This document shows positions 6,585-22,743 of a stretch of 64,000 nt of DNA, piece after piece. A program made the position numbers and the translations under genes. The notes under the pieces were generated by a model. It was not told where the DNA came from. It worked only from the letters and a program-made list of their open reading frames with translations, and made no database searches. Origin of the DNA: an uncultured Holophagaceae bacterium (GTDB taxonomy: Bacteria > Acidobacteriota > Holophagae > Holophagales > Holophagaceae); NCBI GenBank assembly GCA_903913215.1, contig CAIWKE010000037.1, forward strand, positions 1 through 64,000, in the 5' to 3' direction. Each line of letters begins with the position of its first letter. The stretch's first letter is position 1.

Positions 6585-7229
6585 TTGAAACTTACCCAGG
6601 GAGAGAAATCCGAACGCAGCCAGGGGGCGATCCTGCAGGCGGCGCTGCGGCTCTTCTCCAAACAGGGCTACCGGGGCACCAGCATTCGGGAGATTGCCCT
6701 GGAAGCGGGCCTCTCCACGGGCAATGTCTACCACCACTTCCCGGACAAGGAAGCCCTCTTCACCACCCTGTTGGGCCAGTACTGGCAGGCCATTGAGCAG
6801 CCCGACTTCCCCTTCAACAAGGCCCTGGCAGCCGGCGCCTTCCCCGATGACCTGGAGGCCCTGGCCCGGGCGGCGGAAGAGAGCGTGCGCATCTACCGCC
6901 CCTACGTGGACCTCATCTACATCGATGTGGTGGAGTTTGAGGGAACCCACATCCGGAAGTTCTACACGGGCATGTCCGAGCGCTTCTCCAGCTTCCTGAA
7001 CCACCGCTTTCCCGGTGATGCCCTCAAGGACCGCATGGCCCCGGGCTTCCACCCCAACACGGCCCTCATGCTGGTCAGCCGGGTCTTCCTCCAGTACTTC
7101 GCCGTGGAGATCCTCTTCGGCGTGCCCAACCAGTTCGGCATGGATACCCCCCTGGCCATGGCCGAGATCTCCCAGATCCTCCGGGCCGGCATGTTCCGCC
7201 AGGAAGCCTTGCCCCCTGGGAAACCCTGA
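6585..7229 (+). CDS. TetR/AcrR-family transcriptional regulator
   Basis: Predicted one-component repressor of 214 residues. The N-terminal helix-turn-helix lies at about residues 12-58 and shows the family pattern ILQAALRLFSKQGY, then TSIREIALEAGLS and VYHHFPDKEALF. The C-terminal ligand domain is divergent and gives no clue to the effector. The start is TTG, preceded by AGGAG at a good distance (6574-6578); no better ATG exists upstream in frame. It precedes an alpha/beta hydrolase gene whose promoter contains a TetR-like operator (7311-7330), so it may control that gene and the similar site at 13731. The family call is firm; the target is inference. Confidence 0.9.
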   Translation: MKLTQGEKSERSQGAILQAALRLFSKQGYRGTSIREIALEAGLSTGNVYHHFPDKEALFTTLLGQYWQAIEQPDFPFNKALAAGAFPDDLEALARAAEESVRIYRPYVDLIYIDVVEFEGTHIRKFYTGMSERFSSFLNHRFPGDALKDRMAPGFHPNTALMLVSRVFLQYFAVEILFGVPNQFGMDTPLAMAEISQILRAGMFRQEALPPGKP

Positions 7230-7332: not shown

Positions 7333-7344
7333 GTGGAGAAAACC

Positions 7345-8265
7345 ATGCACACCTGGATCTGGCTGCTGCTGCTCCTGGTCGTCCTGGTCCTGGCCGGTCT
7401 GGGCACCCTGACCTGGCTAGGGCGAAAGCGTCCCCTGGCCCTCTATGCCTGGACCTGCCGACGCGCCCTGGCCAAGGCCGGGCTGCGGCAGCACTTCGTG
7501 CCCTCGAGCCAGGGCCCCCTTTCAGTCTTTGTGGGCGGGTCGGGGCCCCTGCTGCTGTTGCTGCACGGCGCCGGCGACCAGGCGGGCACCTGGGCCAAGG
7601 TGGTGCCCGCGCTCTTGGGCCACTACCGGCTCATCCTCCCGGATCTGGCGGGGCACGGGGACAGCGCGCCTGCCACGGGCACCATCGAGGCCGCAGCCAT
7701 TGTCGCCGGGCTGGAGGCGGTCATCGGCGCGGAGGCCCAGGGCGAGCCCCTCACGGTCATTGGGAACTCCCTGGGGGGGTGGATGGCCATGGTGCTGGCC
7801 CAGCGGCATCCCGATTGGGTGGCCCGGGTGATCGCCGTGAACGGCGGCGCACTCAAGGGCTCCAGTGGCTCGGTCAACCTGCTGCCCGGAACTCGCCGCG
7901 AGGCCCAGGAGACCATGGCCCAGCTGCGGGACCCCAGCAATCCGGCTGTCCCCGACTTCGTGCTGGACGACATGGTCCGCCGGGGCAAGAGCAGTCCACT
8001 GCGACGCTTCGTCGCCACGGTCAACACCACCATGGGCGACTGGACCCTGGACGAGGCCCAGCTCCGCAGCATCGAGACCCCGGTCACCCTGCTCTGGGGT
8101 ACCGCGGACCAGTTGATGACCTTGGGCTACGCTCAGCGCATGGCCTCAGTGCTGCCCCATGCGGACCTGATCCCCATCGCCCGCTGCGGCCACATCCCCC
8201 AGCAGGAGGCCCCGGAGCGTTTCCAGGAGGCGCTGCTGAAGGTGCTGGGCGAAGCCGGAGCCTAA
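7345..8265 (+). CDS. Membrane-anchored alpha/beta hydrolase
   Basis: Predicted serine hydrolase (esterase, thioesterase or lactonase-like) of 306 residues. One hydrophobic segment at residues 4-25 acts as signal anchor. The fold follows with the LLLHGAGD oxyanion region, nucleophile Ser142 in GNSLGG, acid Asp255 in WGTADQL and His283 in CGHIP. ATG 7345 was chosen because GGAG lies 7 bp upstream (7336-7339); a GTG four codons earlier is possible but has no such site. The leader is short and contains the operator-bearing promoter at 7304-7332. It neighbours a TetR gene and acyl-CoA-type genes, so the substrate may be an ester or thioester of that pathway. The substrate cannot be named from sequence. 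Confidence 0.85.
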   Translation: MHTWIWLLLLLVVLVLAGLGTLTWLGRKRPLALYAWTCRRALAKAGLRQHFVPSSQGPLSVFVGGSGPLLLLLHGAGDQAGTWAKVVPALLGHYRLILPDLAGHGDSAPATGTIEAAAIVAGLEAVIGAEAQGEPLTVIGNSLGGWMAMVLAQRHPDWVARVIAVNGGALKGSSGSVNLLPGTRREAQETMAQLRDPSNPAVPDFVLDDMVRRGKSSPLRRFVATVNTTMGDWTLDEAQLRSIETPVTLLWGTADQLMTLGYAQRMASVLPHADLIPIARCGHIPQQEAPERFQEALLKVLGEAGA

Positions 8266-8342: not shown

Positions 8343-9356
8343 TCATTCTGAGTAGGGGCCCCACTGGATGACCGTGGAGGCCCAGACGAAGCCGAGACCC
8401 GCGCCGACGAAGACGATGCGCGAGCCGTCGTAAACCTTGCCGTCCCGTAGGCCCAGCTCCAGGGAGAGGACCTGGTCGTTCTGGCCCAGGTGGCCGTACT
8501 CGTCCAGGTAGGTGCTCTGGTCCTGGCGCAGGCCCAATTCTGCCAGCACTGCATCGTGGGCGCTGCGCTTGAAGTGGAGGATGGCCAGGTAGTCCAGGTC
8601 CTTCTCGGTGAAGCCCGACAGCTGCAGGGACTCGCGGATCACAGCGTAGAAGTTGGGCATGGTGACCTCACCGAGCTTGGCTTTGAAGGCCTCTTCGTCG
8701 GGCACCATGAAGTGGGCCTTGGCCACATCCTCCGCAGCGGGGGGCCAGGCCTTGGTACCCAGGGTGGGCACGATGCACATCTCGGACAGCGACCCATCGC
8801 CCCGGAAGGCCGAAGCCAGCACGGCGTTGCGGCCCGCGTTCTTCTTCAGCACCACAGCGGAGCCACCGGAGCCGATGTCCAGCATGAAGCGGGTGGCGGG
8901 CACTGCTGAGTCGATGAGGTCGTTGTTGCGGTAGCCGGACACCAGCAGCACCGTCTCCAGCTCCGGGTGGGTGGTCATGAGGGCCTTGGCCACATCCAGG
9001 GCCGCCATCATGGAGCCGCACATGGCCTCCATGTCGAAGCTCCAGGCCCGTTTGGCGCCGATCTGGTTGGCCACATAGAGCCCCGCCAGCCAGCAGGGGT
9101 AGTCTTTGTGCTGGGCGCCGCACCAGATGACGAGATCCACGGCGCCGCCGACGACCTTCGCATCGGCCAGGGCCTTGTTGGCGGCGGCTAGGCCCATGAA
9201 GGCAGTGGTTTCGCCGGGCCCCGCCACGGGCTTGCCCTTCACGCCGAACTTGAGGGCGATGACGTCCTCGGGCACACCCGTGGCCAAGGCCAGGTCCGCT
9301 GCGCTCTGCCGCCCCGAGGGCAGCCAGGTTCCGGTGCCGATGATCCCCACATGCAT
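8343..9356 (-). CDS. KAS III / HMG-CoA synthase-like condensing enzyme, unusual triad
   Basis: Thiolase-fold protein of 337 residues, start MHVGIIGTGTWLPSG. The nucleophile region is DMEAMCGSMMAAL (Cys113) and the usual FabH histidine is at AILHFKRSAH (His261). Where FabH has Asn in a GNTSAAS motif, this protein reads YGHLGQND (His289, Asp294), a variant seen in KAS III-like acyltransferases rather than in housekeeping FabH. It may transfer or condense acyl groups on CoA. ATG 9356 is chosen because GGAGG sits 5 bp upstream; ATG 9377 is in frame with a weaker site. The gene is transcribed away from the regulator at 9789 and faces the hydrolase at 7345. Family sure; reaction unknown. Confidence 0.8.
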   Translation of the reverse strand: MHVGIIGTGTWLPSGRQSAADLALATGVPEDVIALKFGVKGKPVAGPGETTAFMGLAAANKALADAKVVGGAVDLVIWCGAQHKDYPCWLAGLYVANQIGAKRAWSFDMEAMCGSMMAALDVAKALMTTHPELETVLLVSGYRNNDLIDSAVPATRFMLDIGSGGSAVVLKKNAGRNAVLASAFRGDGSLSEMCIVPTLGTKAWPPAAEDVAKAHFMVPDEEAFKAKLGEVTMPNFYAVIRESLQLSGFTEKDLDYLAILHFKRSAHDAVLAELGLRQDQSTYLDEYGHLGQNDQVLSLELGLRDGKVYDGSRIVFVGAGLGFVWASTVIQWGPYSE

Positions 9357-9788
9357 GGAGGCCTCCACGAAAGACATGAATCGTCTCTCACTTTTGATAC
9401 TCCCCTTTGAACCCAGCCACAAGAGGAAAAGATGGCTGGGTCATGTATGAGCCCTTCTCGACCACGCTATCTCGGGTTCCTTCTTTTTGTGGCCTTTGTG
9501 CTCTTTGTGGCAAATTCCATTTTTTTGGGCCTGGGGCAGAGCCCGCTGCCGCAAAACCGCCGCGGGTTCTCTGGGGTGATTCTTCAAGTGATCCGGCTAT
9601 CTGGAGAAAAAAGGTTGGCCACAAAGAACACAAAGGGCACAAGGGAAAGCACTTTGAGGCGGTCGATAAGGAGCGCCAACTTTCTTGTTGCAAGCCAGCC
9701 TGAGGCAGGTCTAGACTCCCCATGACCACCGAATCGCCTCTCATTCCTGATCTACCGGTTTTCTTTCCTCTCATCCTGGAGTCCCCCG
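9357..9788. other. Non-coding gap containing a palindromic repeat
   Basis: About 430 bp between the divergent KAS III-like and double-TetR genes. It holds the CACAAAG-type inverted repeat at 9487-9642. No convincing reading frame or clear promoter was seen; an SD-like TGGAG lies before the start at 9789. Confidence 0.6.
9487..9642. repeat. CACAAAG-type 25-bp inverted repeat with 106-bp interior
   Basis: The arms at 9487-9511 and 9618-9642 are inverted copies matching at 23 of 25 positions, each made of three units of a 9-bp CACAAAGNN pattern. The interior shows no ORF. It shares its design, though not its exact sequence, with the CGCAGAG and CACGAAG palindromes at 37971, 57417 and 36897. Confidence 0.8.
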
Positions 9789-10970
9789 ATGTCCTCTGGT
9801 GCCCGTGGCAACCCGCAGACCGCCGAACGGCTGGTGGCGGCGGCCGTGGAGCTCTTCGCCCAGAAGTGGTACGCCACCGTGTCCGTGGCGGAGATCTGCC
9901 GTGAGGCGGGGTTGTCCAACGGGGTCTTCTACCGCTATTTCGAGGGCAAGGAGGCGCTCTTCAAGCTCATCCTCGGTCGAGTCCTGGAGCAGATCCGGGA
10001 GGCCATGGAGCAGGCCGGGGGCCAGACGCCCCGGGAGCGGATCCAGAACTACTCCGCGGCCATGCTCCGCTACACCGAGGCCCATGCGGACCTGATCTCG
10101 GTGTTCCGGGAGGGCCAGTACCGCTACTTCGACTTTGAGCGCCGCCTGGTGGCCATCTACACCCGCAGCCTCAGCACGGCCCTGGGCCGGGAAGTGGACC
10201 TCGCGGAGTATCTGTTCGCCTTCGGCGGCCTGCGCTTCTGCTCCATCCGCGGTGCCTCCGGGGCCAGCTCCATCGACCTCGACACTGTCACTGGCATTGT
10301 CACCGACGGCCTCTTCCGGGGCCTCAGTTTTGACGCCGCCAAGGTCTTTGGCGGCTCGGCCAAGCCTTTGCCGGTCGCGCTTGAAGAGGGAGTCCGTGAG
10401 CGGCTGTTGCGCTCGGGCCGGCGCCTATTCGGGGAGAAGGGCTACTTCGAGACCAACATCCACGAAGTGACGAGCGGGGCTCAGCTGTCGGTTGGGGCCT
10501 TCTACACGCACTTCGGCTCCAAGGAGGCTTTCTACGCGGAGCTCATCGGCCTGGTGGGCCACGATGTGCGCGCCTTCATCGCCACGAACATGGCCGGGAC
10601 GACGGGGCTCAATGCCCTGGAGTTTGAGCTGCGCGGCCTCTGGCTGTGGCTGGTGTACCTCTCCATGGACCGGAACTGCTACAACATCGTGCGCGAGGCG
10701 GAGTTCGTGCTGCCAGCAACAGTGCGGGAGTACTACGGCGCCTTCGCCGCGGGCTACAAGAAGCGGCTGGCCCCTCTGCGAATCACCCGCACGGCACCGC
10801 AGTTGGACGAAGCCACGGCCATTGAATTCCTCATGGGCCTGGCCCACTACTTCGGCATGGAAGCCGCCTTCGACACCTCGCCCATCAACGCACGGGCCCT
10901 GGTTGAGACCCTCGGCGGCTACCTGGCCCACGGTCTTTCTGAGTTCTTTCCCCAGCAGGAGTCGGCATGA
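9789..10970 (+). CDS. Double TetR-family regulator (two TetR units in one chain)
   Basis: Predicted transcriptional regulator of 393 residues, about twice the usual TetR length. The first unit has its HTH at residues 12-60 (LVAAAVELFAQKWY, SVAEICREAGLSNG, FYRYFEGKEALF). The second starts near residue 200 with another HTH (LLRSGRRLFGEKGY, NIHEVTSGAQLSVG, FYTHFGSKEAFY). Each is followed by a helical ligand-domain-like stretch. TetR proteins act as dimers, so this chain may be a covalent pseudo-dimer. Its last codons overlap the start of the CoA-transferase gene (10967-10970, ATGA), so the two are translationally coupled and the regulator probably controls this catabolic operon. The start has TGGAG 7 bp upstream. 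Confidence 0.85.
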   Translation: MSSGARGNPQTAERLVAAAVELFAQKWYATVSVAEICREAGLSNGVFYRYFEGKEALFKLILGRVLEQIREAMEQAGGQTPRERIQNYSAAMLRYTEAHADLISVFREGQYRYFDFERRLVAIYTRSLSTALGREVDLAEYLFAFGGLRFCSIRGASGASSIDLDTVTGIVTDGLFRGLSFDAAKVFGGSAKPLPVALEEGVRERLLRSGRRLFGEKGYFETNIHEVTSGAQLSVGAFYTHFGSKEAFYAELIGLVGHDVRAFIATNMAGTTGLNALEFELRGLWLWLVYLSMDRNCYNIVREAEFVLPATVREYYGAFAAGYKKRLAPLRITRTAPQLDEATAIEFLMGLAHYFGMEAAFDTSPINARALVETLGGYLAHGLSEFFPQQESA

Positions 10971-12274
10971 ACGCCAAGGACATCTATCTGAGCAAGTTGG
11001 TCCCCATCGATGAGGCCGTGGCACTCATCCGCAGCGACAACGACGTGATCGTGGCCCAATGCGCCTCCGAGCCCCAGGGCTGCATGTCCCGATTCCACAT
11101 CGTCGGGGATCGGGTGGAGAATGTGCGGGTCTTCTCGGTGCTCACCCTGAAGGAATACGACTTCTACATGAAGAAGGAGATGAAGGGCCACTTCGAGCTG
11201 GCCTCCTGGTTCCATGCGCCGGGCTCCCGGGCGGCCCTCAAGGCCAACACGGGTACTGTTACCTACGTGCCCAACATGCTGCACCGCGCTGCCACGGACC
11301 GTATCCACGCCCACCGCCCCGACATCTTCTTCGGCACCTGCACCCCGCCAGACAAGCACGGCTTCGTATCACTTTCGTTGGGCATCACCTACGAGAAGGA
11401 CATCATGGACCACGCCCGCCTCGTGGTCCTGGAAGTGAACCCGCGCCTGCCCCGGACCTTCGGTGACACCCAGGTCCACGTGTCCAAGGTGGACTACTTC
11501 GTGGAGCACGACCAGGAGGTTCCGGCCCTGCCGGCCCCCCAGCCCAACGCCACGGACCTGGCCATCGGCGCCCACATCGCTGGGCTGGTGGAGGATGGTT
11601 CGACGTTGCAGTTGGGCATTGGCGGCATTCCCAACGCTGCGGCCATGGCCCTCAAGGACAAGAAGGATCTGGGTGTCCACACCGAGATGCTGGTGGATTC
11701 CATGATGGAGCTCTACGAACTGGGCGTGATCACCAACGGGCGGAAGGCCCTCAAGCCCGGCAAGTTCGTCACGACCTTCGCTATGGGCTCCCGGAAGTTC
11801 TACGACTGGCTGGACGACAACCTGGCCGTGGAGTTCCAGCGGGGCAGCTGGGTGAACAACCCCGCCGTGGTGGCCCAGAACTCCCAGATGGTCTCGATCA
11901 ACACCTGCATCTCTGTGGACTTCACGGGCCAGGTGGCCAGCGAGTCCATCGGCCCCAACCAGTACTCCGGCACCGGCGGCCAGTCCGACACGGCCCAGGG
12001 CGCGGTGGCTGGCTTCGATGGCAAGGGCAAGAGCATCATCGCCTGCTACAGCACTGCCAAGGGCGGCACCGTCTCGACCATCACGCCCATGCTCTCCGAA
12101 GGCTCCGCCGTCACCCTGCACCGCTCCCACGTGGACCACGTGGTGACGGAGCATGGCGTAGCCCGGCTCCGCGGCCGCACCGTGCGGGAGCGGACCCAGG
12201 CCCTCATCAGCATCGCCCACCCGGACTTCCGTGCCGACCTCACGGCCCAGGCCCGGACCCTCGGCTACCTCTGA
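10967..12274 (+). CDS. Acetyl-CoA hydrolase / acyl-CoA:carboxylate CoA-transferase
   Basis: 435-residue protein of the acetyl-CoA hydrolase/transferase family (Cat1, Cat2, 4-hydroxybutyrate CoA-transferase type). It would move CoA from acetyl-CoA or another donor onto a carboxylic acid, a common activation step, or hydrolyse the thioester. The conserved LGIGGIPNAA loop is at about residues 216-225 and the putative catalytic glutamate is Glu240 in GVHTEMLVDS, where the family forms a glutamyl-CoA intermediate. It overlaps the double TetR gene and is followed after 31 bp by a MaoC hydratase, which fits an acyl-CoA degradation operon. Family certain; acceptor acid unknown. Confidence 0.88.
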   Translation: MNAKDIYLSKLVPIDEAVALIRSDNDVIVAQCASEPQGCMSRFHIVGDRVENVRVFSVLTLKEYDFYMKKEMKGHFELASWFHAPGSRAALKANTGTVTYVPNMLHRAATDRIHAHRPDIFFGTCTPPDKHGFVSLSLGITYEKDIMDHARLVVLEVNPRLPRTFGDTQVHVSKVDYFVEHDQEVPALPAPQPNATDLAIGAHIAGLVEDGSTLQLGIGGIPNAAAMALKDKKDLGVHTEMLVDSMMELYELGVITNGRKALKPGKFVTTFAMGSRKFYDWLDDNLAVEFQRGSWVNNPAVVAQNSQMVSINTCISVDFTGQVASESIGPNQYSGTGGQSDTAQGAVAGFDGKGKSIIACYSTAKGGTVSTITPMLSEGSAVTLHRSHVDHVVTEHGVARLRGRTVRERTQALISIAHPDFRADLTAQARTLGYL

Positions 12275-12305
12275 TCCACCCCGTGTTCCTTTCCTGGGAG
12301 CCAGC

Positions 12306-12737
12306 ATGAGTGAACTAACCACACCTCAGACCTTCACCGTCGGCCAGAGCTGCCGCGCCTCACAGTTCATCGACGACGCCCTCGTCCGCGCTTTCGCGGA
12401 GGTGAGCGGGGACCACAACCCCATCCACCTGGACGACGCCGTGGCCAAGACCAGCCGGTTCGGCCAGCGCATCGCCCACGGCGCCATCCTCTTCGCCCTC
12501 ATCTCCAAGGTCTTCGGCATGGACATGCCGGGCGTCGGCACGGTCTACCTCAGCCAGACCTGCAACTTCAAGCTGCCGGTTTTCCTGGGCGACACCGTGA
12601 CGCTGGAAGCCACCATCGTCGAGCTGCTCCCCAAGAGCATCGCCCGAATTTCCACGGTCATTACGAAGCAGACCGGGGAGGTGGTCATGGATGGCGTGGC
12701 CGAAGTGAAGCTCCCCGGCTGGCTCTTCAAGGGCTAG
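12306..12737 (+). CDS. MaoC-family (R)-specific enoyl-CoA hydratase
   Basis: 143-residue hot-dog-fold protein predicted to hydrate trans-2-enoyl-CoA to (R)-3-hydroxyacyl-CoA. The hydratase-2 motif is complete: FAEVSGDHNPIHLDD, with catalytic Asp36 and His41, followed by FGQRIAHGA. ATG 12306 has GGGAG upstream (12297-12301). It is the third gene after the double TetR and CoA-transferase genes. Its TAG stop shares the four bases CTAG (12734-12737) with the stop of the convergent hydrolase gene. Confidence 0.88.
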   Translation: MSELTTPQTFTVGQSCRASQFIDDALVRAFAEVSGDHNPIHLDDAVAKTSRFGQRIAHGAILFALISKVFGMDMPGVGTVYLSQTCNFKLPVFLGDTVTLEATIVELLPKSIARISTVITKQTGEVVMDGVAEVKLPGWLFKG

Positions 12738-13531
12738 AAGGGGTGCTTGGCGAGGAAGCCGGCCACGAGGGTGTTCACCTCCGCCGCCTTCTCCATCACC
12801 ACCACGTGGCCCGCACCTGGGACCAGGTGGAATTCAGAACCGGCGATGGCCCTATGCATGATCTCGCCGTAAGACCTGGGTTTGAGGATATCGAATTCAG
12901 CCGAGGCAATGCAGGTAGGCACGTGGATCTTTGACAAGTCGGCAGTGACATTGAATCGCTGGAAGCTTTCCAGCAGTTGGTCCGCGGCCACGAGATCCAG
13001 GCTGGCATAACGCTCCTCCGCCATGGGGATCAACTCCGGCCGCTGGATGAGGAAGGCTTCCGAATAAGTATCCGCGTAGATGAGACGGAAGAATTTGGGT
13101 CCGTCGCCCAGGCTCGCGGCGATGCGCCAGCGCTCGATCATGGCCACCAACAGCGGTTCGCTGTGGGAGACCGAGGCGATGATCACCAGGCTCTGGCAGC
13201 GCTCCGGATAGCGGATCCCCATCACCAGGTTCAGCTCGCCCCCGTACGAGGTGCCCACCATGTGTGCCTTGTCCAGGTGCAGGGCATCCATCAGGGCCAG
13301 CAGATCCTCGCCGTGCTGCTCCAGGCTGTACTCGCCTGCGGGGTGTTCGCTCTGCCCCTGGCCCCGCATGTCGTAGGTGAGCACCCGGTAGCGCGAGACC
13401 AGGGCGGGCAACTGGAAGGCCCAGGAGGTGGTGTTCATGAACACCCCGTTGTTCAGGATCACCAGCTCGCCATCCTCGCGGCCCTGGAACTCGTAGAAGA
13501 GGCTTACGCCGTTGACGCTCAGGTGGGGCAT
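12734..13531 (-). CDS. Alpha/beta hydrolase (enol-lactonase-like)
   Basis: 265-residue soluble serine hydrolase of the 3-oxoadipate enol-lactonase/epoxide hydrolase-like group. Landmarks are LTYDMRGQGQS, nucleophile Ser95 in GTSYGGEL, Asp214 in SAEFDIL and His242 in GAGHVVV. ATG 13531 has AGGAG 7 bp upstream; an upstream in-frame extension to 13660 runs through AT-rich promoter DNA and is rejected. It is divergent from the KAS III-like gene at 13842 and shares with it the gap holding the operator-like site at 13731. It may open a ring or cleave an ester in the same pathway; the substrate is unknown. Confidence 0.85.
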   Translation of the reverse strand: MPHLSVNGVSLFYEFQGREDGELVILNNGVFMNTTSWAFQLPALVSRYRVLTYDMRGQGQSEHPAGEYSLEQHGEDLLALMDALHLDKAHMVGTSYGGELNLVMGIRYPERCQSLVIIASVSHSEPLLVAMIERWRIAASLGDGPKFFRLIYADTYSEAFLIQRPELIPMAEERYASLDLVAADQLLESFQRFNVTADLSKIHVPTCIASAEFDILKPRSYGEIMHRAIAGSEFHLVPGAGHVVVMEKAAEVNTLVAGFLAKHPF

Positions 13532-13841
13532 GGTGGGTCTCCTGATACAAGATGGATGGGTTGTTTTTCCAGGCCGATTCTCTGCGCTCCGACTCGCTAC
13601 GTCCATGGACAATGCGAATCGACTCGCAGGTCGATTATTTTTAACATAGATATTTTTCAATGTTTACAGACTATTTTGTGAACCATTTTTGACCTTGACA
13701 GCGATTGAATTCAGCGCAAAATTTCAAAGCAAACCAACTGTTCGTTTTTTAAAATCTTTCCTCGGTCCTCATCCGATCACCGGTTGTGGCGTGCACTCGC
13801 GAGGAATCCTGCAGAAACCTGGCTTTTCATAGGGAGACACG
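13532..13841. promoter_or_regulatory. AT-rich divergent promoter region with TetR-type operator
   Basis: 310 bp between divergent genes, markedly richer in A+T than its surroundings (especially 13630-13760). AAACCAACTGTTCGTTTTTT begins at 13731 and closely resembles the site at 7311 (shared TGTTCG/CGTTCG core, then the same CGTTTTTTAAA end). TTGACA occurs at 13695-13700 without a convincing -10 at standard spacing. The two genes are probably controlled together. Confidence 0.5.
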
Positions 13842-14834
13842 ATGGACCGCTTTGCTTCGATCATTTCCACCGGCATGTACCTCCCGTCCATCCGGGTCCA
13901 CAACGACGATCTGCGGAAGCGCTTCGCCCACCTGCCGGATTTCATCGACAAGATGGAGGAGTCCTCCGCCATCCGCTGCCGCTGGCATGCGCCCGAAGAC
14001 TGGGCCACCTCGGACCTGGCCCTGCCAGCTGCTCAGCAGGCTCTGGAGCGGGCCGGACTCAAGCCTGAGGACGTTGACCTCATCATTCTAGGGACCGACT
14101 CGCCTGACTACATCACCCCCGCGACTTCCGTCGTCCTGCAGTACAAGCTGGGCGCCGTGAACGCAGGGACCTTCGATGTGGGCTGCGCCTGCGCCTCCTT
14201 CCCCACGGCCCTGGCCTCGGCCGCCGGTTGGATCGCCACGAACCCGGCCATCAAGACGGTGCTGGTGGTGGGGGTTTACCTCATGCACAAGCTGGCCGAC
14301 CCCAACGACCCCATGACCTTCTTCTACGGCGATGGCGCCGGAGCCGCGGTGCTGGTGGCCTCTGACAAGCCCGGGTTCCTCGGCGCCGCAGCCCAGGCGG
14401 GGGGCGCCTACCACAAGCACTGGGGCATCTACTCGGGCGGGACCTATGAACCGGCCACGGTGGCCTCGGTGGAGGCGGGCCGAACCCAGGTGAGGATTCT
14501 CGAGCGCTATCCTCCCGAGGTCAACCACGAGGGCTGGCCGCGGGTGGTCCGCAAGCTGGCCGCCGGCGCTGGATTCCAGGTTTCCGATATCGATTTCATC
14601 CTCTTCACGCAGGTTCGCAAAGGCTCCATCGAGCTGGTCATGAAGGACCTCGGCCTGCCCCTGGAGAAGACGCACACGATCATGGAGGAGTGGGGCTACA
14701 CCGGCTCCGCCTGCCTTCCCATGGTCCTGGACGATGCCCTGGCCAAGAAGATGATCTGCTCCGGCGACCGGCTTGTGCTGGTGGGCTCGGGGGTGGGCTA
14801 CAACCAGGCGGCTGCCGCCTTCGTCATGCCCTGA
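13842..14834 (+). CDS. KAS III-like protein lacking the His and Asn of the triad
   Basis: 330-residue thiolase-fold protein with FabH layout. The Cys is present (FDVGCACASF, Cys117). The histidine motif is replaced (FILFTQVRKGSI, Thr256 where FabH has His of PHQAN) and the asparagine motif reads EWGYTGSAC (Tyr286 where FabH has Asn of YGNTSAA). Classical decarboxylative condensation is therefore unlikely; an acyltransferase, a thioester hydrolase or a non-catalytic partner subunit is possible. An RBS is weakly suggested by AGGGAGA at 13830-13836. It heads a run with thiolase, unknown protein and SDR genes, 50 bp before the thiolase gene. Fold call firm; role open. Confidence 0.82.
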   Translation: MDRFASIISTGMYLPSIRVHNDDLRKRFAHLPDFIDKMEESSAIRCRWHAPEDWATSDLALPAAQQALERAGLKPEDVDLIILGTDSPDYITPATSVVLQYKLGAVNAGTFDVGCACASFPTALASAAGWIATNPAIKTVLVVGVYLMHKLADPNDPMTFFYGDGAGAAVLVASDKPGFLGAAAQAGGAYHKHWGIYSGGTYEPATVASVEAGRTQVRILERYPPEVNHEGWPRVVRKLAAGAGFQVSDIDFILFTQVRKGSIELVMKDLGLPLEKTHTIMEEWGYTGSACLPMVLDDALAKKMICSGDRLVLVGSGVGYNQAAAAFVMP

Positions 14835-14884
14835 CATTCCGCTTTCAGCAACCCAACTTTTCCCCGCACGAAAGGAGCCACTCC

Positions 14885-16126
14885 ATGAGCAAGGCAAGCA
14901 TCATCGGTGCTTACAACACACAATTCGGTGCCTTCATCAAGAAGGACAAGGCCACAGGCCTGATCACCGACACCAAGACCTACTACGACCTGCTCATTGA
15001 GGCTGGTCGTGGCGCTATCGCCGATTCGGGCCTGGAAGCCAAGGACATCGACGCCATCTACGTGGGCTCCTGCTCGCCTGGAACCTTCATCAACCAGGAG
15101 CACGTCGCCCCCCTGGCCGCGGAGATCGATCCCGCCCTGCGCTTCAAGCCCATGTCCCGCTGCGAATGTGCCTGCGCCTCCAGCTCTGTGGCCCTCTACA
15201 ACGCGGTCTATGCCGTGGAAGCTGGCCGTGCCAAGAACGTGCTGGTGATCGGCGTGGAGAAGATGAACCTCCTGCCCACGCCCCAAATGACCCACGTGCT
15301 GGCCTGCTCCTCCCATTGGCCGACCGAAGGCTCCAAGGGCATGTCCTTTCCCATGCTCTTCGCCGAGTATGCGAAGGGCTACCAGGCCTTCTACAAGATC
15401 CCCAAAGAAGAGCTGGAGCAGATGCTCTGGACCGCTGGCGCTCTCTGCTACAAGAACGGTGCTGAGAATCCCCTGGCCCATGTGCAGAATGGCCCCGCCA
15501 GCGTCGAAGCCATCATGAAGCTCAACGAGCTGGACCCCAAGGGCAAGTGCAAGAACATGATGATCGCCGCGCCCCTGCGCCTCCACGACTGCTCCTTGGT
15601 GACGGACGGCGCTGCCGCCCTGGTCATCACCGCCACTTCCGCGGTCACCAACCGGAAGCGTGCCGTGGAGATCGCCGGCATCGGCCACTCCACCGAGCGT
15701 CTGCCCGAGAACGTGCGCCCCAACATGCACGAGCTCATGGCCGGCAAGGACGCCGCCGCCAAGGCCTTCAAGGAAGCGGGCATCACCGCCGCCGATATCG
15801 ACCTGGCTGAAGTGCATGACTGCTTCACCATCAACCAGATCCTCTCCACGGAAGCCCTGGGCCTCTCGGCCGATGGCCGGGGCGGCTATGACTACCTGGA
15901 CGGCCGCTTCACCCGCGACGACAAGGTGGCCATCAACCTCTCGGGCGGTCTCAAGTCCAAGGGCCATCCCGTGGGCGCCACGGGTGCCTCCATGCATGCC
16001 CTCATCTTCAAGCAGCTCATCGGCGAGCCCATCGGGGTCGCTGCCAAGAAGGCCGACATCGGTGTGGCCTTCAACGTCGGCGGGTCCGCCGTCACCAACT
16101 GCGTCACGGTTCTGAAGAAGCTCTAG
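14885..16126 (+). CDS. SCP-x-type thiolase (acetyl-CoA acetyltransferase family)
   Basis: 413-residue thiolase-like enzyme of the lipid-transfer/SCP-x group, predicted to cleave or form 3-oxoacyl-CoA. The nucleophile lies in CECACASSS; downstream are EVHDCFTINQ and GGLKSKGHPVGATG with the catalytic His. The group typically lacks the second Cys motif of biosynthetic thiolases, as seems true here (FNVGGSAVTNC). AAGGAG lies 7-9 bp upstream of ATG 14885. It follows the triad-less KAS III-like gene, so the two might form a heteromeric enzyme, as known for some thiolase-superfamily pairs; this is inference. Confidence 0.87.
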   Translation: MSKASIIGAYNTQFGAFIKKDKATGLITDTKTYYDLLIEAGRGAIADSGLEAKDIDAIYVGSCSPGTFINQEHVAPLAAEIDPALRFKPMSRCECACASSSVALYNAVYAVEAGRAKNVLVIGVEKMNLLPTPQMTHVLACSSHWPTEGSKGMSFPMLFAEYAKGYQAFYKIPKEELEQMLWTAGALCYKNGAENPLAHVQNGPASVEAIMKLNELDPKGKCKNMMIAAPLRLHDCSLVTDGAAALVITATSAVTNRKRAVEIAGIGHSTERLPENVRPNMHELMAGKDAAAKAFKEAGITAADIDLAEVHDCFTINQILSTEALGLSADGRGGYDYLDGRFTRDDKVAINLSGGLKSKGHPVGATGASMHALIFKQLIGEPIGVAAKKADIGVAFNVGGSAVTNCVTVLKKL

Positions 16127-16152: not shown

Positions 16153-16470
16153 ATGAAAAAGATTCTCTACAACGACATGCAGTTCTCGGTGGAGCCCTCT
16201 GGCGATCGCTGGGACATCACCTACACCCTGCCCAACAACGCGACGGCGGTGGTGGCGGCGGGCCTCTTCGCGGGCCTGCCGGAAAGCGAGGCGGGAGCCC
16301 GTGCTCTGGCCCTCATCAAGACCATCTTCCCGGTGGGCATCAAGTCTGTGGGCCCCGACGTCCTCCACCCCAACACCATCGGGGATCTGAAGATCGTCGG
16401 ACCGGATGTCACCCACCCCAATTTCATCTACTGGGACAAGGACAGCGTCTCCTGTCCCAAGGCGCTCTGA
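16153..16470 (+). CDS. Unknown 105-residue protein with duplicated GPDVxHPN motif
   Basis: I do not recognise this family. It is well placed between the thiolase and SDR genes on the same strand, with GAAAGGA upstream of its ATG, so it is very likely expressed. The C-terminal half contains a clear duplication, VGPDVLHPNTI then VGPDVTHPNFI, 17 residues apart, ending in YWDKD. No signal peptide, membrane segment or Cys pair is visible. The middle (VVAAGLFAGLPESEAGARALALI) is hydrophobic-helical. Its position suggests a small subunit or activator of the neighbouring condensing enzymes, as small partners occur in other thiolase complexes; that is inference only. Confidence 0.7.
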   Translation: MKKILYNDMQFSVEPSGDRWDITYTLPNNATAVVAAGLFAGLPESEAGARALALIKTIFPVGIKSVGPDVLHPNTIGDLKIVGPDVTHPNFIYWDKDSVSCPKAL

Positions 16471-16531
16471 TCCATCGGATCAGGGCCATCCACTCCAAAT
16501 CCAAACCACAATTGCAGACAGAGGAACCCAT

Positions 16532-17326
16532 ATGGAAATCAAAGGAAGCGTTGCCCTGGTGACCGGCGGCGGCAACGGCATCGGCGAAGCCGTCGTGAAG
16601 TACCTCTCCAGTCGCGGTGCCAAGGTGGCCGTGGTGGACATGGTCCAGAAGAACATCGACCGTGTGGTCGCGGAAGTGAAGGCGGCCGGCGGCGAGGCGG
16701 TGGGCATTCAGGCCAACGTCACCAGCGAGGCCGATACGGCCCGCTACATCAAGGGCACCATTGAAGCCTTCGGCCAGCTGAACATCGCGGTGTCGTGCGC
16801 CGGGATCATCCGTGACGGGACGATGCTAAGCCTGGATAAGGAGACCGGCAAGGTCTCCAAGAAGTTGGATTTCGCCAAGTGGCAGGCGGTCATCGACACC
16901 AACCTTTCGGGCACCTTCCTCACCATGCGCGACGCAGCTGAGGCCATGGTGAACGGCGGTTGGGAGGGCCTGCTGGTGCCCATCTCCTCCGTAAACAAGG
17001 TAGGCCAGGTAGGTCAAATCAATTACTCCTCTGCCAAGGTCGCCGACGCCCTCATGCCCAAGATCATCGTGGGTGAGTTCCTCATGCGCGGAATCCGCAA
17101 GATTCGCTGCGTGGCCATTGCCCCCGGCTACACGGCGACCCCCATGCTGACCGGGATGAACCAGGACGCATTAAAAGCAATCCTTGAAGATGTACATCTC
17201 GGCCGCCTCGTGGCCCCCGAGGAGATCGCCTCGCTCATCGGCTACATCGTCGAGAACCAGGCCCTGAACGCCACCACCATCGAAATCACCGGTGGCCTTT
17301 GCTACCCCAAGGGTATTGCGAAGTGA
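16532..17326 (+). CDS. Short-chain dehydrogenase/reductase (3-hydroxyacyl-CoA dehydrogenase-like)
   Basis: 264-residue classical SDR. The NAD(P) loop is TGGGNGIG near residues 11-18, the NNAG-type motif reads SCAG, and the catalytic Ser and YxxxK are in PISSVNKVGQ and NYSSAK. Asp after the second strand (VVDMVQ) favours NAD(H). The closest general resemblance is to FabG and type-2 3-hydroxyacyl-CoA dehydrogenases. ATG 16532 has GAGGA upstream. With the thiolase and MaoC hydratase it would complete a beta-oxidation-like sequence for an acyl-CoA. Confidence 0.87.
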   Translation: MEIKGSVALVTGGGNGIGEAVVKYLSSRGAKVAVVDMVQKNIDRVVAEVKAAGGEAVGIQANVTSEADTARYIKGTIEAFGQLNIAVSCAGIIRDGTMLSLDKETGKVSKKLDFAKWQAVIDTNLSGTFLTMRDAAEAMVNGGWEGLLVPISSVNKVGQVGQINYSSAKVADALMPKIIVGEFLMRGIRKIRCVAIAPGYTATPMLTGMNQDALKAILEDVHLGRLVAPEEIASLIGYIVENQALNATTIEITGGLCYPKGIAK

Positions 17327-17478: not shown

Positions 17479-18771
17479 ATGAACATTCGTTTCGCTGTCG
17501 TCGCCGCCGCCTCGGCCCTTGTCGCTCTGCCCAGTTATGGGCAGGGTCTTCAGGTCGGCGCTGCCACCAACATCACCATCGGTGGTCTCCTCGCCGTGGG
17601 TGTGAAGAACTCCGAAATCACTCAGGGAAATGCCGCCACCGACCGTAAGGTCGCGGCTGAGACGCGCGTCGATGACAACACCTCCCGACTGGTCATCTCC
17701 AGCACCTCCAAGATCACTGAGGGCTGGAACGTGATCTTCCGAATTGAGAGCCGCTTCAACTCCGACATTCGCCCCGTCTATCAGGCGTCCGCCTACAACG
17801 GTTGGGCAGATGGCGACACCTGGGGCGGTATCTCCTCCCCCTATGGCTCTATTGTGGTCGGAAAGTCCACCCTTTACTACACCGACACCATCAGCGCCGG
17901 CTACCTGGCTCCCAGCCTTGAGGCTCCCGGTGAGGGCTATCGCATTTGGGATGACAACGGCCTCGCCAGTTTCAATATGCTGTCTGGCTGGATGAGTGGC
18001 ACTGCCACCGCCGCAGGAGGATTCACTCCCGCAGCCAACAACAAGATCCTCGGCAACAGCCGCTCCTCGAACGTGATCCGCTACGATTCCATTACCTTCA
18101 AGCCTACTGGAGCTGACCTCCTCGACTTTTCACTGGCCTGGTCGAAGCAGCCCCAGGGCGACGAGAACCGCTACGTCTCGCTTACCAATGGATCCACCTA
18201 TGAGGGTGGCCAGACCATCTACGGCCGTGTGCGTTACAACGGTTATGGTTTCTCGGCCTCGGCTAGCTACCTAGACCAAAAGCCGATGCCCAATGCCGCC
18301 CTTGTCGCCCCCAGCAATACCTTTACCGCATTGGGGACAGAGCTGAAGGCCATGCGCCTTGGTGTTTCCTACAAGTGGCAGGGCCTGAAGGTGGGCGTGG
18401 TCTATGACGACGCGACCCAGACGAACGGCATCATCACCGGGGCCGGCGCAACTGCGGTTCTTTCGGATGCAAAGCGCTCCGTCATCGCCATTCCCGTGTC
18501 CTATGCATGGGGCGATCATGCCGTCTACGCTACCTACACCGTGGCTGACAAGACCTCCTCGTACGCCGACACTGGTGCCAAGCAGATTAACGTCGGTTAT
18601 GACTACGCCCTGACCAAGCGCGCCTTCATCGGGGTCTTCTACACCAAGATTGACAACGACAAGAACGCGAACTACGGTCCTTTCCTCGCCGGCACCGTCT
18701 TCGGTGGAACCACCACCGCCACCGGCGAGAGCTTCCGCCAGGTTGGCGTCAACCTGAACTACTGGTTCTAG
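17479..18771 (+). CDS. Outer-membrane porin (general porin family)
   Basis: 430-residue barrel protein with an N-terminal signal peptide (MNIRFAVVAAASALVALPSYG, cut after the AxxSYG region). It has alternating beta-strand patterns (SRLVISSTSKI, IRYDSITFKP, VNLNYWF) and ends in Phe, the usual outer-membrane insertion signal. It resembles the 16-stranded trimeric porins of the OmpC/PorB type. AAAGGA precedes ATG 17479. It uses more A/T-ending codons than its neighbours. Lying between the catabolic SDR and the ABC importer, it probably supplies the outer-membrane step for the same substrate. Confidence 0.85.
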   Translation: MNIRFAVVAAASALVALPSYGQGLQVGAATNITIGGLLAVGVKNSEITQGNAATDRKVAAETRVDDNTSRLVISSTSKITEGWNVIFRIESRFNSDIRPVYQASAYNGWADGDTWGGISSPYGSIVVGKSTLYYTDTISAGYLAPSLEAPGEGYRIWDDNGLASFNMLSGWMSGTATAAGGFTPAANNKILGNSRSSNVIRYDSITFKPTGADLLDFSLAWSKQPQGDENRYVSLTNGSTYEGGQTIYGRVRYNGYGFSASASYLDQKPMPNAALVAPSNTFTALGTELKAMRLGVSYKWQGLKVGVVYDDATQTNGIITGAGATAVLSDAKRSVIAIPVSYAWGDHAVYATYTVADKTSSYADTGAKQINVGYDYALTKRAFIGVFYTKIDNDKNANYGPFLAGTVFGGTTTATGESFRQVGVNLNYWF

Positions 18772-18945: not shown

Positions 18946-20130
18946 ATGCACCTGACACGCAAGATCGCCAAGGGCCTCGCTGCGCTTTCCCTCTGCGCGG
19001 GTGTGGCCGTCCTGGCCCAAGACATCAAGATCGCCCACGTCTATGACAAGACCGGAGTCCTCGAGGCCTACGCCAAGCAGACCCAGGCCGGTCTGGTGAT
19101 GGGCCTGGAATACGCCACCGGTGGCACCATGATGGTCAACGGCCACAAGCTGGTGATCGTCGAGAAGGACACCCAGGGCAAGCCCGACGTGGCCAAGTCC
19201 ATGCTGGCCTCGGCCTACGCCGACGACAAGGCCGCCATCGCCGTGGGCCCCACCAGCTCCGGTGCCGCCCTGGCCATGCTGCCCGTGGCCGAGGAGTACA
19301 AGAAGATCCTCCTGGTGGAGCCGGCCGTGGCTGATTCCATCACCGGCGACAAGTGGAACCGCTACATCTTCCGCACGGGCCGCAACTCCTCCCAGGACGC
19401 CATCTCCAACGCCGTGGCCCTGGACAAGGCCGGCTACAACATCGCCACCCTGGCCCAGGACGTGGCCTTCGGCAAGGACTTCGTGAAGGCTTTCCGTGGC
19501 GCCATCAAGAACGCCAAGCTGGTGCATGAGGAATACCTGCCCGCCACCACCACCGACTTCACCGCCGGTGCCCAGCGGCTCTTCGACAAGCTCAAGAACC
19601 TGCCTGGTCGCAAGATCATCTTCATCAACTGGGCCGGCGGCGGCAATCCCTTCAAGATCGCCGATCTGGACCCCAAGCGCTATGGCATCGAGATCGCCAG
19701 CGGTGGCAACATCCTGCCCGCCATGGCCGCCTACAAGGCCTTCCCCGGCCTCGAAGGCGCCCTCTACTACTACTACGAGATCCCCAAGAACAAGGTCAAC
19801 GACTGGCTCGTGAAGGAGCACCAGAAGCGCTTCAACGCGCCTCCGGACTTCTTCACCGCCGGTGGCATGTCCGCAGGCATCGCCGTGGTGGAAGCCCTCA
19901 AGAAGACCAAGGGCGACGCCACCACCGAGAAGCTGATCTCCACCATGGAGGGCATGTCCTTCGAGACGCCCAAGGGCAAGATGACCTTCCGCAAGGAGGA
20001 CCACCAGGCCCTGCAGTCCATGTACCACTTCAAGATCAAGGTTGATCCCAAGGTGGCGTGGGCTGTGCCTGAGCTCATCCGTGAGATCAAGATCACCGAC
20101 ATGGATATTCCCATCCGCAACAAGCGCTGA
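18946..20130 (+). CDS. ABC transporter periplasmic substrate-binding protein (HAAT/LivJ type)
   Basis: 394-residue periplasmic protein of the branched-chain amino acid/hydrophobic carboxylate binding family (Peripla_BP_6). The signal peptide is MHLTRKIAKGLAALSLCAG with a cut near AVLAQ. The mature part starts IKIAHVYDKTGVLEAY, as in family members. ATG 18946 has GGAGG 5 bp upstream (18937-18941). It is first of five transporter genes on one strand and is separated from the ATPase genes by a perfect palindrome (20144-20171), a common way to make binding protein in excess. The genes upstream suggest an acid or aromatic/acyl substrate rather than leucine. Confidence 0.88.
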   Translation: MHLTRKIAKGLAALSLCAGVAVLAQDIKIAHVYDKTGVLEAYAKQTQAGLVMGLEYATGGTMMVNGHKLVIVEKDTQGKPDVAKSMLASAYADDKAAIAVGPTSSGAALAMLPVAEEYKKILLVEPAVADSITGDKWNRYIFRTGRNSSQDAISNAVALDKAGYNIATLAQDVAFGKDFVKAFRGAIKNAKLVHEEYLPATTTDFTAGAQRLFDKLKNLPGRKIIFINWAGGGNPFKIADLDPKRYGIEIASGGNILPAMAAYKAFPGLEGALYYYYEIPKNKVNDWLVKEHQKRFNAPPDFFTAGGMSAGIAVVEALKKTKGDATTEKLISTMEGMSFETPKGKMTFRKEDHQALQSMYHFKIKVDPKVAWAVPELIREIKITDMDIPIRNKR

Positions 20131-20171: not shown

Positions 20172-20214
20172 GCGCTTGACCTGTCACTTCACCGCCAAAC
20201 CGATACGAGAATCA

Positions 20215-20973
20215 ATGACGTTCGCCCTGGAAACCCGAGAACTCACCATCCGCTTCGGCGGCCATGTGGCGGTCAATGCCGTGTCCTGCGGCTTCGCGCC
20301 CGGCACGCTCACCGCCATCGTCGGCCCCAACGGAGCGGGCAAGACCACCTACTTCAACCTCATCTCTGGCCAACTCAAGGCCAGCGCCGGCAGTGTGCAC
20401 CTGCAGGGCCACGACATCAGCGGCCTTTCGGCGCCCCAGCGCAGCCACAAGGGCATCGGCCGGGCCTTCCAGCTGACCAACCTGTTCCCCAACCTGAGCG
20501 TGATGGAGAACATCCGGTTGGCCGTCCAGTCCCGTGCGGGCATGGGCCTCAACATGTGGAGCATCTGGAGCAGCCACAAAGACCTGATCCGCAGAGCCGA
20601 GGAGGTCCTCGAAACCGTGGCCCTCACCGCCAAGCGCGACCTCGCCGCAGCGGCCCTGCCCCACGGGGATCAGCGAAAGCTGGAAGTGGCCATCCTCATG
20701 GCTCTGCAGCCCGACATCTTCATGTTCGATGAGCCCACAGCGGGCATGAGCGTGGACGAGGTACCCGTGATCCTGGACCTCATCCGCGGCCTCAAGACCC
20801 AGGGTGACAAGACCATCCTCCTGGTGGAGCACAAGATGGATGTGGTCCGGGAGTTGGCCGACCGCATCATCGTGCTGCACAACGGCGCCCTGGTGGCCGA
20901 TGGCGACCCCGCCGAGGTGATCGCCTCCCCCATCGTGCAGGAAGCCTACCTTGGGATCGAGGTGGCCAAATGA
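20215..20973 (+). CDS. ABC transporter ATPase (LivG type)
   Basis: 252-residue ATPase subunit of a HAAT importer. Walker A is GPNGAGKTT, the signature region is LPHGDQRKLEVA (LPHGDQR instead of the usual LSGGQ form, normal for LivG) and Walker B is IFMFDEPTAGM followed by the H-loop LLVEHKMD. The RBS before ATG 20215 is weak. The gene overlaps the next ATPase by ATGA (20970-20973), so the pair is translationally coupled. It powers uptake with the permeases at 21721 and 22743. Confidence 0.9.
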   Translation: MTFALETRELTIRFGGHVAVNAVSCGFAPGTLTAIVGPNGAGKTTYFNLISGQLKASAGSVHLQGHDISGLSAPQRSHKGIGRAFQLTNLFPNLSVMENIRLAVQSRAGMGLNMWSIWSSHKDLIRRAEEVLETVALTAKRDLAAAALPHGDQRKLEVAILMALQPDIFMFDEPTAGMSVDEVPVILDLIRGLKTQGDKTILLVEHKMDVVRELADRIIVLHNGALVADGDPAEVIASPIVQEAYLGIEVAK

Positions 20974-21707
20974 GCACACCCCTGCTGCAACTCGAAGGCG
21001 TGCATACGCACATCGGCGCCTACCACATCCTCCACGGCGTGGACCTCCAGGTCGCCCAGGGTGAGCTGACGGTGCTGCTGGGCCGCAATGGTGCTGGCAA
21101 GACCACCACCCTGCGCACCATCATGGGTCTCTGGAGCGCCTCCTCTGGCAGCATCCACTTCGACGGCCAGGACATGACCGCTCGGGCCACGCCGGACATC
21201 GCCCAGTCGGGCATTGCCTACGTGCCTGAGAACATGGGTGTCTTTGGCGACCTCACCGTGGCGGAGAACATGCTGTTGGCCGCCCGCGGTGCCCAGCGGG
21301 CCGAGGATCTGGATGCGGCGCGGCTGGAGTGGATCTTCGGCCTCTTCCCCGCCATGAAGCGCTTCTGGGAACACCCTGCAGGCCTGCTCTCCGGCGGCCA
21401 GAAGCAGATGCTGGCCGTGGCCCGCGCCATCGTGGAGCCCCGGAAGCTCCTGCTCGTGGACGAGCCCAGTAAGGGCCTGGCGCCGGCGATCATCCAGAAT
21501 ATGATCTCGGCCTTCCGCGAACTCAAGCAGACCGACACCACCATTCTGCTGGTGGAACAGAACTTCAATTTCGCCCGGCAGCTCGGCGACCAGGTCGCCG
21601 TCATGGACGGCGGGCGCGTCGTGCATGCGGGCTCCATGGCCGCCCTGGCCGAGGACGAGGACTTGCAGCAGCACCTGCTGGGTCTGTCCCTTGCCTCGCA
21701 CCAGTAG
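20970..21707 (+). CDS. ABC transporter ATPase (LivF type)
   Basis: 245-residue second ATPase of the importer. Walker A is GRNGAGKTT, the signature LLSGGQKQM, Walker B LLLVDEPSKGLAP and the H-loop ILLVEQNFNF (Gln for His, usual in LivF). It overlaps livG-type by 4 bp and is followed after 13 bp by the first permease. Confidence 0.9.
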   Translation: MSTPLLQLEGVHTHIGAYHILHGVDLQVAQGELTVLLGRNGAGKTTTLRTIMGLWSASSGSIHFDGQDMTARATPDIAQSGIAYVPENMGVFGDLTVAENMLLAARGAQRAEDLDAARLEWIFGLFPAMKRFWEHPAGLLSGGQKQMLAVARAIVEPRKLLLVDEPSKGLAPAIIQNMISAFRELKQTDTTILLVEQNFNFARQLGDQVAVMDGGRVVHAGSMAALAEDEDLQQHLLGLSLASHQ

Positions 21708-21720: not shown

Positions 21721-22743
21721 ATGAATTCCACCGCTACCTCGGCTCCGGCCCTCGAGGCGATCCCCAAGGTGAAGCTCGACCTGCTGCCCATGCTTCTGCT
21801 GCCGGCCCTGGCCCTCCTGGCGATCCCCCTCACCGGCTCCTTCTCCACCTGGGTCACGCTCACCTTCGCGGGCCTGGCCATGGGCATGATCATCTTCATC
21901 ATCGCCTCGGGCCTCACCCTGGTCTTTGGCCTCATGGACGTCCTCAACTTCGGCCACGGCGTCTTCATCACCGTGGGTGCCTTCCTCGCCGTCACCATGC
22001 TGGGCCTCATGCCCGCCTGGACCGAGAGTGAGCACCTCTGGCGAAACCTCGCGGCCCTGGTGCCAGCGCTGCTGGTGGCCATGGTCGTGGCCGGGCTTGT
22101 GGGCCTGGTCTTCGAGCGGGTCATCATCCGCCCGGTTTATGGCCAACCCCTGAAGCAGATCCTCATCACTATGGGCGGCATGATCGTGGGCGAGGAACTG
22201 ATCAAGGTCATCTGGGGACCCCAGGCCGTGCCCCTGCCATTGCCGGCCGCCTTCCGGGGCTCCCTGCTCATGGGCGACGCCGCTGTGGAGAAGTACCGCA
22301 TCATCGCGGTGGTCTTGGGCCTGGCGGTTTTTGCGGTGCTCTACTGGGTGCTCAGCCGCACCAAGATCGGCCTGCTCATCCGGGCCGGAGTGCACGATCG
22401 CGAAATGGTCGAGAGCCTCGGCTACCGCATCCGCCGCCTCTTCGTGGGCGTCTTCGTGGCGGGCTCGGCCCTGGCGGGCCTGGGCGGTGTCATGTGGGGC
22501 CTCTACCAGCAGTCCGTGACGCCGCAGATCGGCGGGCAGGTCAACGTGCTGCTTTTCATCGTCATCATCATCGGCGGCATGGGCTCCATCGGGGGCTGCT
22601 TTGTGGGCGCCCTCCTGGTGGGTCTGGTGGCCAACTACGCGGGTTTCATGGCCCCCAAGGTCGCCCTCTTCTCCAACATCCTGCTGATGGTGCTCGTGCT
22701 TCTGTGGCGCCCCCAGGGCCTCTTTCCGGTAGGTAAACGCTGA
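21721..22743 (+). CDS. ABC transporter inner-membrane permease (LivH type)
   Basis: 340-residue permease with about eight hydrophobic segments, beginning with LLPMLLLPALALLAIP. The family signature GLTLVFGLMDVLNFGHG is at about residues 64-80, and VIIIGGMGSIGGCFVGALL lies near the C-terminus. AGGAG precedes ATG 21721. It has a longer N-terminus than LivH of E. coli. Its TGA and the next gene's ATG overlap at base 22743. Confidence 0.9.
   Translation: MNSTATSAPALEAIPKVKLDLLPMLLLPALALLAIPLTGSFSTWVTLTFAGLAMGMIIFIIASGLTLVFGLMDVLNFGHGVFITVGAFLAVTMLGLMPAWTESEHLWRNLAALVPALLVAMVVAGLVGLVFERVIIRPVYGQPLKQILITMGGMIVGEELIKVIWGPQAVPLPLPAAFRGSLLMGDAAVEKYRIIAVVLGLAVFAVLYWVLSRTKIGLLIRAGVHDREMVESLGYRIRRLFVGVFVAGSALAGLGGVMWGLYQQSVTPQIGGQVNVLLFIVIIIGGMGSIGGCFVGALLVGLVANYAGFMAPKVALFSNILLMVLVLLWRPQGLFPVGKR

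Follow-up and report, generated by a model that had tools for sequence, protein, structure and literature searches.

A KAS III-fold protein with conserved replacements of the catalytic histidine and asparagine in uptake-plus-CoA gene islands of three bacterial phyla

By the textbook account, FabH-type condensing enzymes require a His and an Asn. In KASa, a KAS III-fold protein encoded in the window (the whole 64,000-nucleotide stretch of Holophagaceae DNA analyzed here), the catalytic Cys is kept as Cys117, and the His and Asn are replaced by Thr256 and Tyr286. Judged from its conservation and gene context, KASa has probably been re-tooled for an uncharacterized pathway of nutrient breakdown, and is not simply a broken copy. 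Its chemistry is put forward tentatively, at slightly less than an even chance, as that of a catalytically active, non-decarboxylating, Cys-based KAS III-fold acyl-CoA enzyme working by acyl transfer or retro-Claisen cleavage in organic-acid catabolism; this estimate covers the mechanism class jointly, and either branch taken singly is less probable. The island around KASa in the window was composed as follows.

6585..7229, + strand: TetR regulator
7333..8265, + strand: alpha/beta hydrolase (ABH0), a homologue of the one that adjoins KASa in other Acidobacteriota
8343..9365, - strand: KASb, a divergent KAS III (NF005308/PRK06840, 425.3 bits against a cut-off of 315)
9789..10970, + strand: regulator with two TetR_N stretches
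10967..12274, + strand: acyl-CoA/acetate-type CoA transferase
12279..12737, + strand: MaoC-type hydratase
12734..13540, - strand: alpha/beta hydrolase, PcaD-like
13842..14834, + strand: KASa, KAS III-fold protein, ATG start, 330 aa, with Cys117, Asp86, Thr256, Tyr286 and Cys291
14882..16126, + strand: SCP-x-type thiolase, 47 bp past KASa, catalytic motifs intact
16153..16470, + strand: P105, 105 aa, no family match, 26 bp past the thiolase
16523..17326, + strand: SDR oxidoreductase, FabG-like
17479..18771, + strand: Gram-negative porin (Porin_4)
18946..20130, + strand: LIV-type periplasmic binding protein
20176..20973, + strand: LIV-type ABC ATPase
20970..21707, + strand: second ABC ATPase of the same LIV-type transporter
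21721..22743, + strand: branched-chain-type permease, start set by eye
22743..23813, + strand: branched-chain-type permease

The open reading frame, the three residues and their numbering had been given correctly in the original prediction, as judged from the ORF, Pfam and phmmer alignment to solved FabH chains. Both Pfam ACP_syn_III and ACP_syn_III_C scored above cut-off. In the phmmer alignments, which were gap-free around the sites, Cys117 aligned to the catalytic Cys, Thr256 (in FTQVRKG) fell at the His position of FabH HQAN and Tyr286 (in WGYTGSA) at the Asn position of GNTS, and the His and Asn are truly replaced, as had been proposed. An AlphaFold2 model built from a 62-sequence alignment (mean pLDDT 92) had a KAS III fold, and the top fold-search rows were FabH-type (Z about 44-45); FabH and KASa are alike in whole-length fold and catalytic Cys, at about 25-32% identity. 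They differ in the His-to-Thr and Asn-to-Tyr replacements, in Thr92 at the FabH Phe87 site, and at the site of the E. coli FabH arginine that we take to serve ACP docking, which aligns with Gly261 of KASa and is mostly Pro or Asn in relatives. A residue other than Arg at this site fits CoA, rather than ACP, substrates. Among the best 50 fold rows were FabH-like ones (FabH, BioZ, PqsD and similar), and absence from these 50 does not exclude HMGCS, PhlA, PqsB or CerJ. KASa scored below the NCBIfam cut-offs for fabH (160.6 of 292.1 bits), PRK09352 (184.4 of 249 bits), NF005308 (PRK06840; 153.7 of 315 bits) and the HMG-CoA synthase models NF003274 (68.6 of 244 bits) and TIGR00748 (46.9 of 353 bits).

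Conservation was determined by a scan of the genome collection, which gave 155 relatives; 80 were retained and, together with the window protein, formed a set of 81 sequences (Cys117 81/81, Thr256 80/81, Tyr286 81/81). A further 20 loci, of which 15 had no more than 41-50% identity, brought the set to 101, and residue counts over these 101 leave out five Chloroflexota loci of the deeper subclade (L182-L186). Cys117, Asp86, Gln257, Tyr286 and Cys291 were each found in 101/101 sequences, Thr256 in 100/101 (the lone exception being Ser), His278 in 100/101 and Ser316 in 100/100. A restored His-Asn arrangement had been named as grounds against the original prediction; by alignment, no canonical pair is restored at the two sites, although conserved His278 and Asp86 do exist. 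In the phylum samples (E 1e-60), KASa was present in 39/297 Acidobacteriota and 11/251 Chloroflexota genomes, and its relatives span Acidobacteriota, Chloroflexota and Pseudomonadota. One locus (L012) carries a Bacillota title, yet is 87% identical to the window KASa; MAG labels are fallible, and three phyla rather than four are therefore claimed. The deeper subclade (sub2, 41-50% identity, 15 loci read) retained the signature TQ[VIL] plus GYTGSAC. A tree of 63 rows, which sampled 26/86 KASa sequences of the other subclade (sub1), 4 KASb and 17/19 His/Asn proteins (two of >400 aa were omitted), placed sub1 and sub2 KASa on one branch (98/96) apart from the 17 His/Asn KAS III. The phylogeny earlier suggested as a check on the Thr/Tyr pair thus found the pair conserved within one clade, which fits a single origin, as far as the sequences indicate. 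No description of the family was recognized among the papers listed in searches of the open PMC library.

As a control, other KAS III proteins were collected from 11 KASa-bearing genomes, in which the KAS III C-terminal model had 41 matches; 30 loci were taken and 29 read (L161 yielded no ORF), with the other 11 matches outside the control set. His and Asn were kept in 19/19 non-KASa proteins read, none of which (0/19) had an acid at the Asp86 site, and the KASa members of the set carried Thr, Tyr and Asp in 10/10. The catalytic triad of HMG-CoA synthase is Cys, Glu and His. In the HMG-CoA synthase of a Bellilinea genome (538 bits), the Glu of GSES aligned with KASa Asp86, a His stood opposite Thr256 and an Asn opposite Tyr286. 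HMG-CoA synthase and PhlA, as found in thiolase-DUF35 complexes, resemble KASa in the Cys, in the acid at the same aligned site and in the thiolase and OB-fold neighbours that KASa has in Chloroflexota, whereas HMG-CoA synthase keeps His and Asn at both sites and has Glu where KASa has Asp86. One new acid (Asp86) thus accompanies the two swaps. The KASa active site is accordingly read as rebuilt, not lost, a prediction that follows from the fixed Cys117, Asp86, Thr256 and Tyr286, from the 19 paralogues that keep His and Asn without the acid, and from the single clade.

The profiles used to count neighbours were themselves derived from these loci, and the frequencies refer to the 99 of 106 loci with at least 3 kb on one side; the other 7 (<3 kb on both sides) are outside the counts. 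An AMP-ligase or CoA-transferase was near KASa in 79/99, an alpha/beta hydrolase in 72/99 and a thiolase in 49/99. By group, Chloroflexota plus one further locus, L078 (n = 24), had a CoA transferase in 24, an SDR in 23, a hydrolase in 21, a thiolase in 20, an OB-fold protein in 19 and a LIV binding protein in 18; other Acidobacteriota (n = 36) had an AMP-ligase in 34, an SDR in 32, a hydrolase in 30 and a thiolase in 20; and Holophagaceae-like loci (n = 17) had a LIV binding protein in 13, an SDR in 10, a thiolase in 9 and a CoA transferase in 4. Sub2 loci (n = 15) had an AMP-ligase in 14, a hydrolase in 13 and a thiolase in 0, and Pseudomonadota loci (n = 7) a hydrolase in 4, an AMP-ligase in 3 and a thiolase in 0. 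The uptake-plus-CoA island, in which KASa is the constant member, consists of an importer, an alpha/beta hydrolase and an AMP-ligase or CoA-transferase, to which an SDR, MaoC and thiolase are often added. On a Chloroflexota plasmid these genes formed a compact run of SDR, KASa, CoA transferase, small protein, thiolase (annotated hypothetical, assigned here by profile), OB-fold protein, hydrolase and LIV-ABC transporter. In many Chloroflexota operons the CoA transferase was followed by a short conserved protein (about 104-108 aa; L063 10175-10489 and 13 related ORFs), with no Pfam match in the two scanned (L063 and L068).

By gene content, the islands are predicted to import a compound and attach CoA to it, and taken together their genes would fit the uptake and catabolism of an organic acid. 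Two points tell against the proposed role of KASa. The window SDR and thiolase were only about 26-38% identical to their counterparts in other phyla, and several loci had KASa with few or none of the usual neighbours (e.g., L055 and L086), so different lineages may have different pathways. Outer-membrane parts also varied, with a porin in the window and TonB-type beta-barrel receptors in an Acidobacteriota representative that was scanned. Use of imported 3-hydroxybutyrate, a possible but not the preferred reading, fits the SDR, CoA transferase, thiolase and PHA-depolymerase-like hydrolases (the last by weak, sub-cut-off scores), but leaves KASa without a role. Phloroglucinol breakdown, the subject of Clostridium work (PMC10470551, in excerpt), was considered for the thiolase, CoA transferase and SDR and rejected, as nothing in the island is specific to phloroglucinol. 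Downstream of one sub2 island, a repeat-like ORF resembling a CRISPR array (L127 14999-16331) adjoined a Cas2 gene (Pfam CRISPR_Cas2).

The thiolase next to KASa had been described as intact, and its motifs bear this out (CACAS at 96, HDCF at 312, GHPVGATG at 361). Its best solved match was the acetoacetyl-CoA thiolase 6esq, which we take to be the archaeal thiolase/HMGCS/DUF35 complex; the window has a thiolase beside KASa but no DUF35, and P105, which takes the place that a DUF35/ChsH2 OB-fold protein has in Chloroflexota operons, had no family match and no fold match (Foldseek, none at E 0.001). P105 was found in 10/297 genomes, of which 8 belong to the same family as the window. In its model, residues 1-58 formed a beta4-alpha unit and residues 63-105 were unconfident, although this tail was largely invariant across 12 aligned sequences; being conserved yet unconfident when modelled alone, it may be a binding tail. 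Two GPDVxHP repeats were seen in the tail. P105 is at most a tentative candidate for a degenerate DUF35: a tblastn match (E 0.077) inside the L071 DUF35 gene points that way, and the unconfident conserved tail and the empty Foldseek result point the other. The DUF35-type proteins after the thiolase in L062, L064, L066, L071 and L073 have apparently lost their zinc-binding cysteines. A mixed KAS/thiolase complex, raised in the original prediction, is possible in the window; as a general rule it did not hold, since a thiolase was near KASa in 49/99 loci and in none of the sub2 (0/15) or proteobacterial (0/7) ones. A fixed complex is not general, and KASa is too often without a nearby thiolase for that partnership to be its defining role.

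KASb, which the original prediction leaves out, is also a KAS III by Pfam domains, is 27% identical to KASa and is likewise without the canonical His and Asn. Its Cys is kept, the His site reads Leu followed by His, and the Asn site is His. The haloarchaeal relatives share [TL]H[MF]KRS and YGH; the replacements thus differ from those of KASa, the aligned His site being Thr in KASa and Leu or Thr in KASb. The two were sisters in the tree (98/91), but the KASb branch was 3.0 changes per column long and its placement is therefore unsure. Among 34 Holophagaceae entries (33 distinct genomes, as G320 and G007 appear to be one), KASb was present in 13/33, all 13 with KASa; KASa occurred without KASb in 2 (G004 and G188), and 18 had neither (a strong association, Fisher P = 1.8e-7, uncorrected for shared ancestry or linkage). 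In Geothrix fermentans (L010), KASa and KASb form a tandem with a gap of 43 bp, and a Rhodocyclaceae MAG (L060) has them next to each other; among the loci examined, L060 was the only one beyond Holophagaceae with a KASb near KASa. In the three haloarchaeal plasmids read, KASb came after the permeases in a LIV-ABC operon; upstream, 2/3 carried genes for a hydrolase, an AMP-ligase and MaoC, a 2-oxo acid dehydrogenase-type set lay nearby in 2/3, and no annotated second KAS III gene was found in the flanks. KASb overlapped the last LIV-type permease gene by a few bases (L197, L198 and L199). These surroundings are similar to the KASa islands, and KASa and KASb seem to serve similar islands.

In the mechanism proposed, Cys117 would take the acyl group from an acyl-CoA, so that KASa would keep the acylation half-reaction and have lost decarboxylation. 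Thr256 and Tyr286, from their aligned positions, are candidate hydrogen-bond donors of the pocket in place of His and Asn, and Asp86, at the HMG-CoA synthase glutamate site, is a candidate acid/base. The result would be acyl transfer or cleavage of a beta-keto thioester without malonate decarboxylation. In the window, a small organic acid entering through the porin and LIV-type ABC transporter may be processed by KASa jointly with the CoA transferase, MaoC hydratase, SDR, thiolase and alpha/beta hydrolases, with KASb perhaps acting in parallel or as a partner. In excerpts of the PqsBC study (PMC4807248), FabH decarboxylation needs both His and Asn, and PqsBC H269A acylates at 76.6 vs. 86.9 per second, i.e., the acyl-enzyme forms without His. 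In an excerpt on acyltransferases (PMC9573744), CerJ, of KAS III fold, performs acyl transfer without condensation, and ChlB3 likewise transfers acyl groups. The active site proposed for KASa would fit transfer of the acyl group of a CoA thioester or retro-Claisen cleavage of that thioester. CerJ and ChlB3 share the KAS III fold and Cys nucleophile with KASa, but use a His-Asp pair. In KASa, Cys291 follows Tyr286 at a distance of five residues, a spacing that would equal that of His296/Asp301 in ChlB3, judged by residue numbering rather than alignment.

Two alternatives give KASa a partner. A heteromeric KAS III built from KASa and KASb on the model of PqsBC or LstAB, in which the nucleophile comes from one subunit and residues or shape from the other, is unlikely: those systems also consist of two divergent linked KAS III genes, like the L010 tandem and the window island, and the 13/13 co-occurrence, the adjacency in L060 and the sister placement speak for pairing, but KASb was not near KASa outside Holophagaceae and L060, haloarchaeal KASb had no annotated second KAS III, and its place in the tree is unsure. 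Both proteins keep Cys, unlike PqsB, and neither has His at the site where, in the excerpts available, PqsC (PMC4807248) and LstA (PMC12141560) keep it. PqsB is described in the former as being without all three triad residues, whereas KASa keeps its Cys and the replacements throughout, so the purely structural, PqsB-like role offered in the original prediction is improbable. Quite unlikely, too, is a non-catalytic or CoA-shuttling KASa bound to the thiolase and P105/DUF35, as HMGCS is in the archaeal complex or PhlA in PhlACB. The thiolase (20/24) and DUF35 OB-fold (19/24) genes near KASa in Chloroflexota and the 6esq match agree with it, and PhlACB is a precedent of the same three-part make-up, in which acyl transfer is by PhlC residues only (PMC6392133, in excerpt). 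Against it stand the thiolase counts in the full set, sub2 and Pseudomonadota, the retention of Cys117, Asp86, Thr256 and Tyr286 without a nearby thiolase, which argues for a function of its own, and scores nearer FabH than HMGCS models (184 vs. 69 bits).

The protein kinds of OleB, OleC and OleD are alpha/beta hydrolase, AMP-ligase and SDR. Many Acidobacteriota loci hold these together with a KAS, recalling the oleABCD cluster (PMC7064751, in excerpt), and KASa might then condense two acyl-CoAs by an OleA-like non-decarboxylative Claisen reaction in a biosynthetic cluster, with Asp86 serving as base. This is decidedly improbable: in the same excerpt, OleA has a Glu (Glu117) before Pro that acts in the partner subunit, but KASa has Thr92-Pro93 (80/81) at the FabH Phe87-Pro88 site, its correspondence with OleA being presumed from the F87 register; the window SDR is FabG-like; and a role in uptake and catabolism suits the importers, porin, TonB-type receptor and TetR regulators. 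If KASa were a decaying paralogue, drift would account for the absence of two of three textbook residues, but this is highly improbable, given near-invariance in 101 sequences and three phyla, intact frames and a conserved island.

Against these alternatives, the non-decarboxylating acyl-CoA enzyme is preferred. A broader reading, doubtful but possible, is that KASa forms a distinct thiolase-superfamily class, with Cys-Asp-Thr-Tyr for Cys-His-Asn, whose non-decarboxylative acyl transfer or retro-Claisen reaction would be the signature step of an undescribed organic-acid pathway in three phyla, with a parallel haloarchaeal version in KASb. That both residues are swapped, and stay so in 101 sequences from uptake/CoA islands in three phyla, suggests recruitment of the KAS III fold to another reaction. 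The KASa of the Chloroflexota plasmid is annotated as ketoacyl-ACP synthase III, which points to fatty-acid synthesis, probably wrongly. Identification of the KASa substrate would put a name to a catabolic pathway of little-known groups such as Holophagaceae and Anaerolineae.
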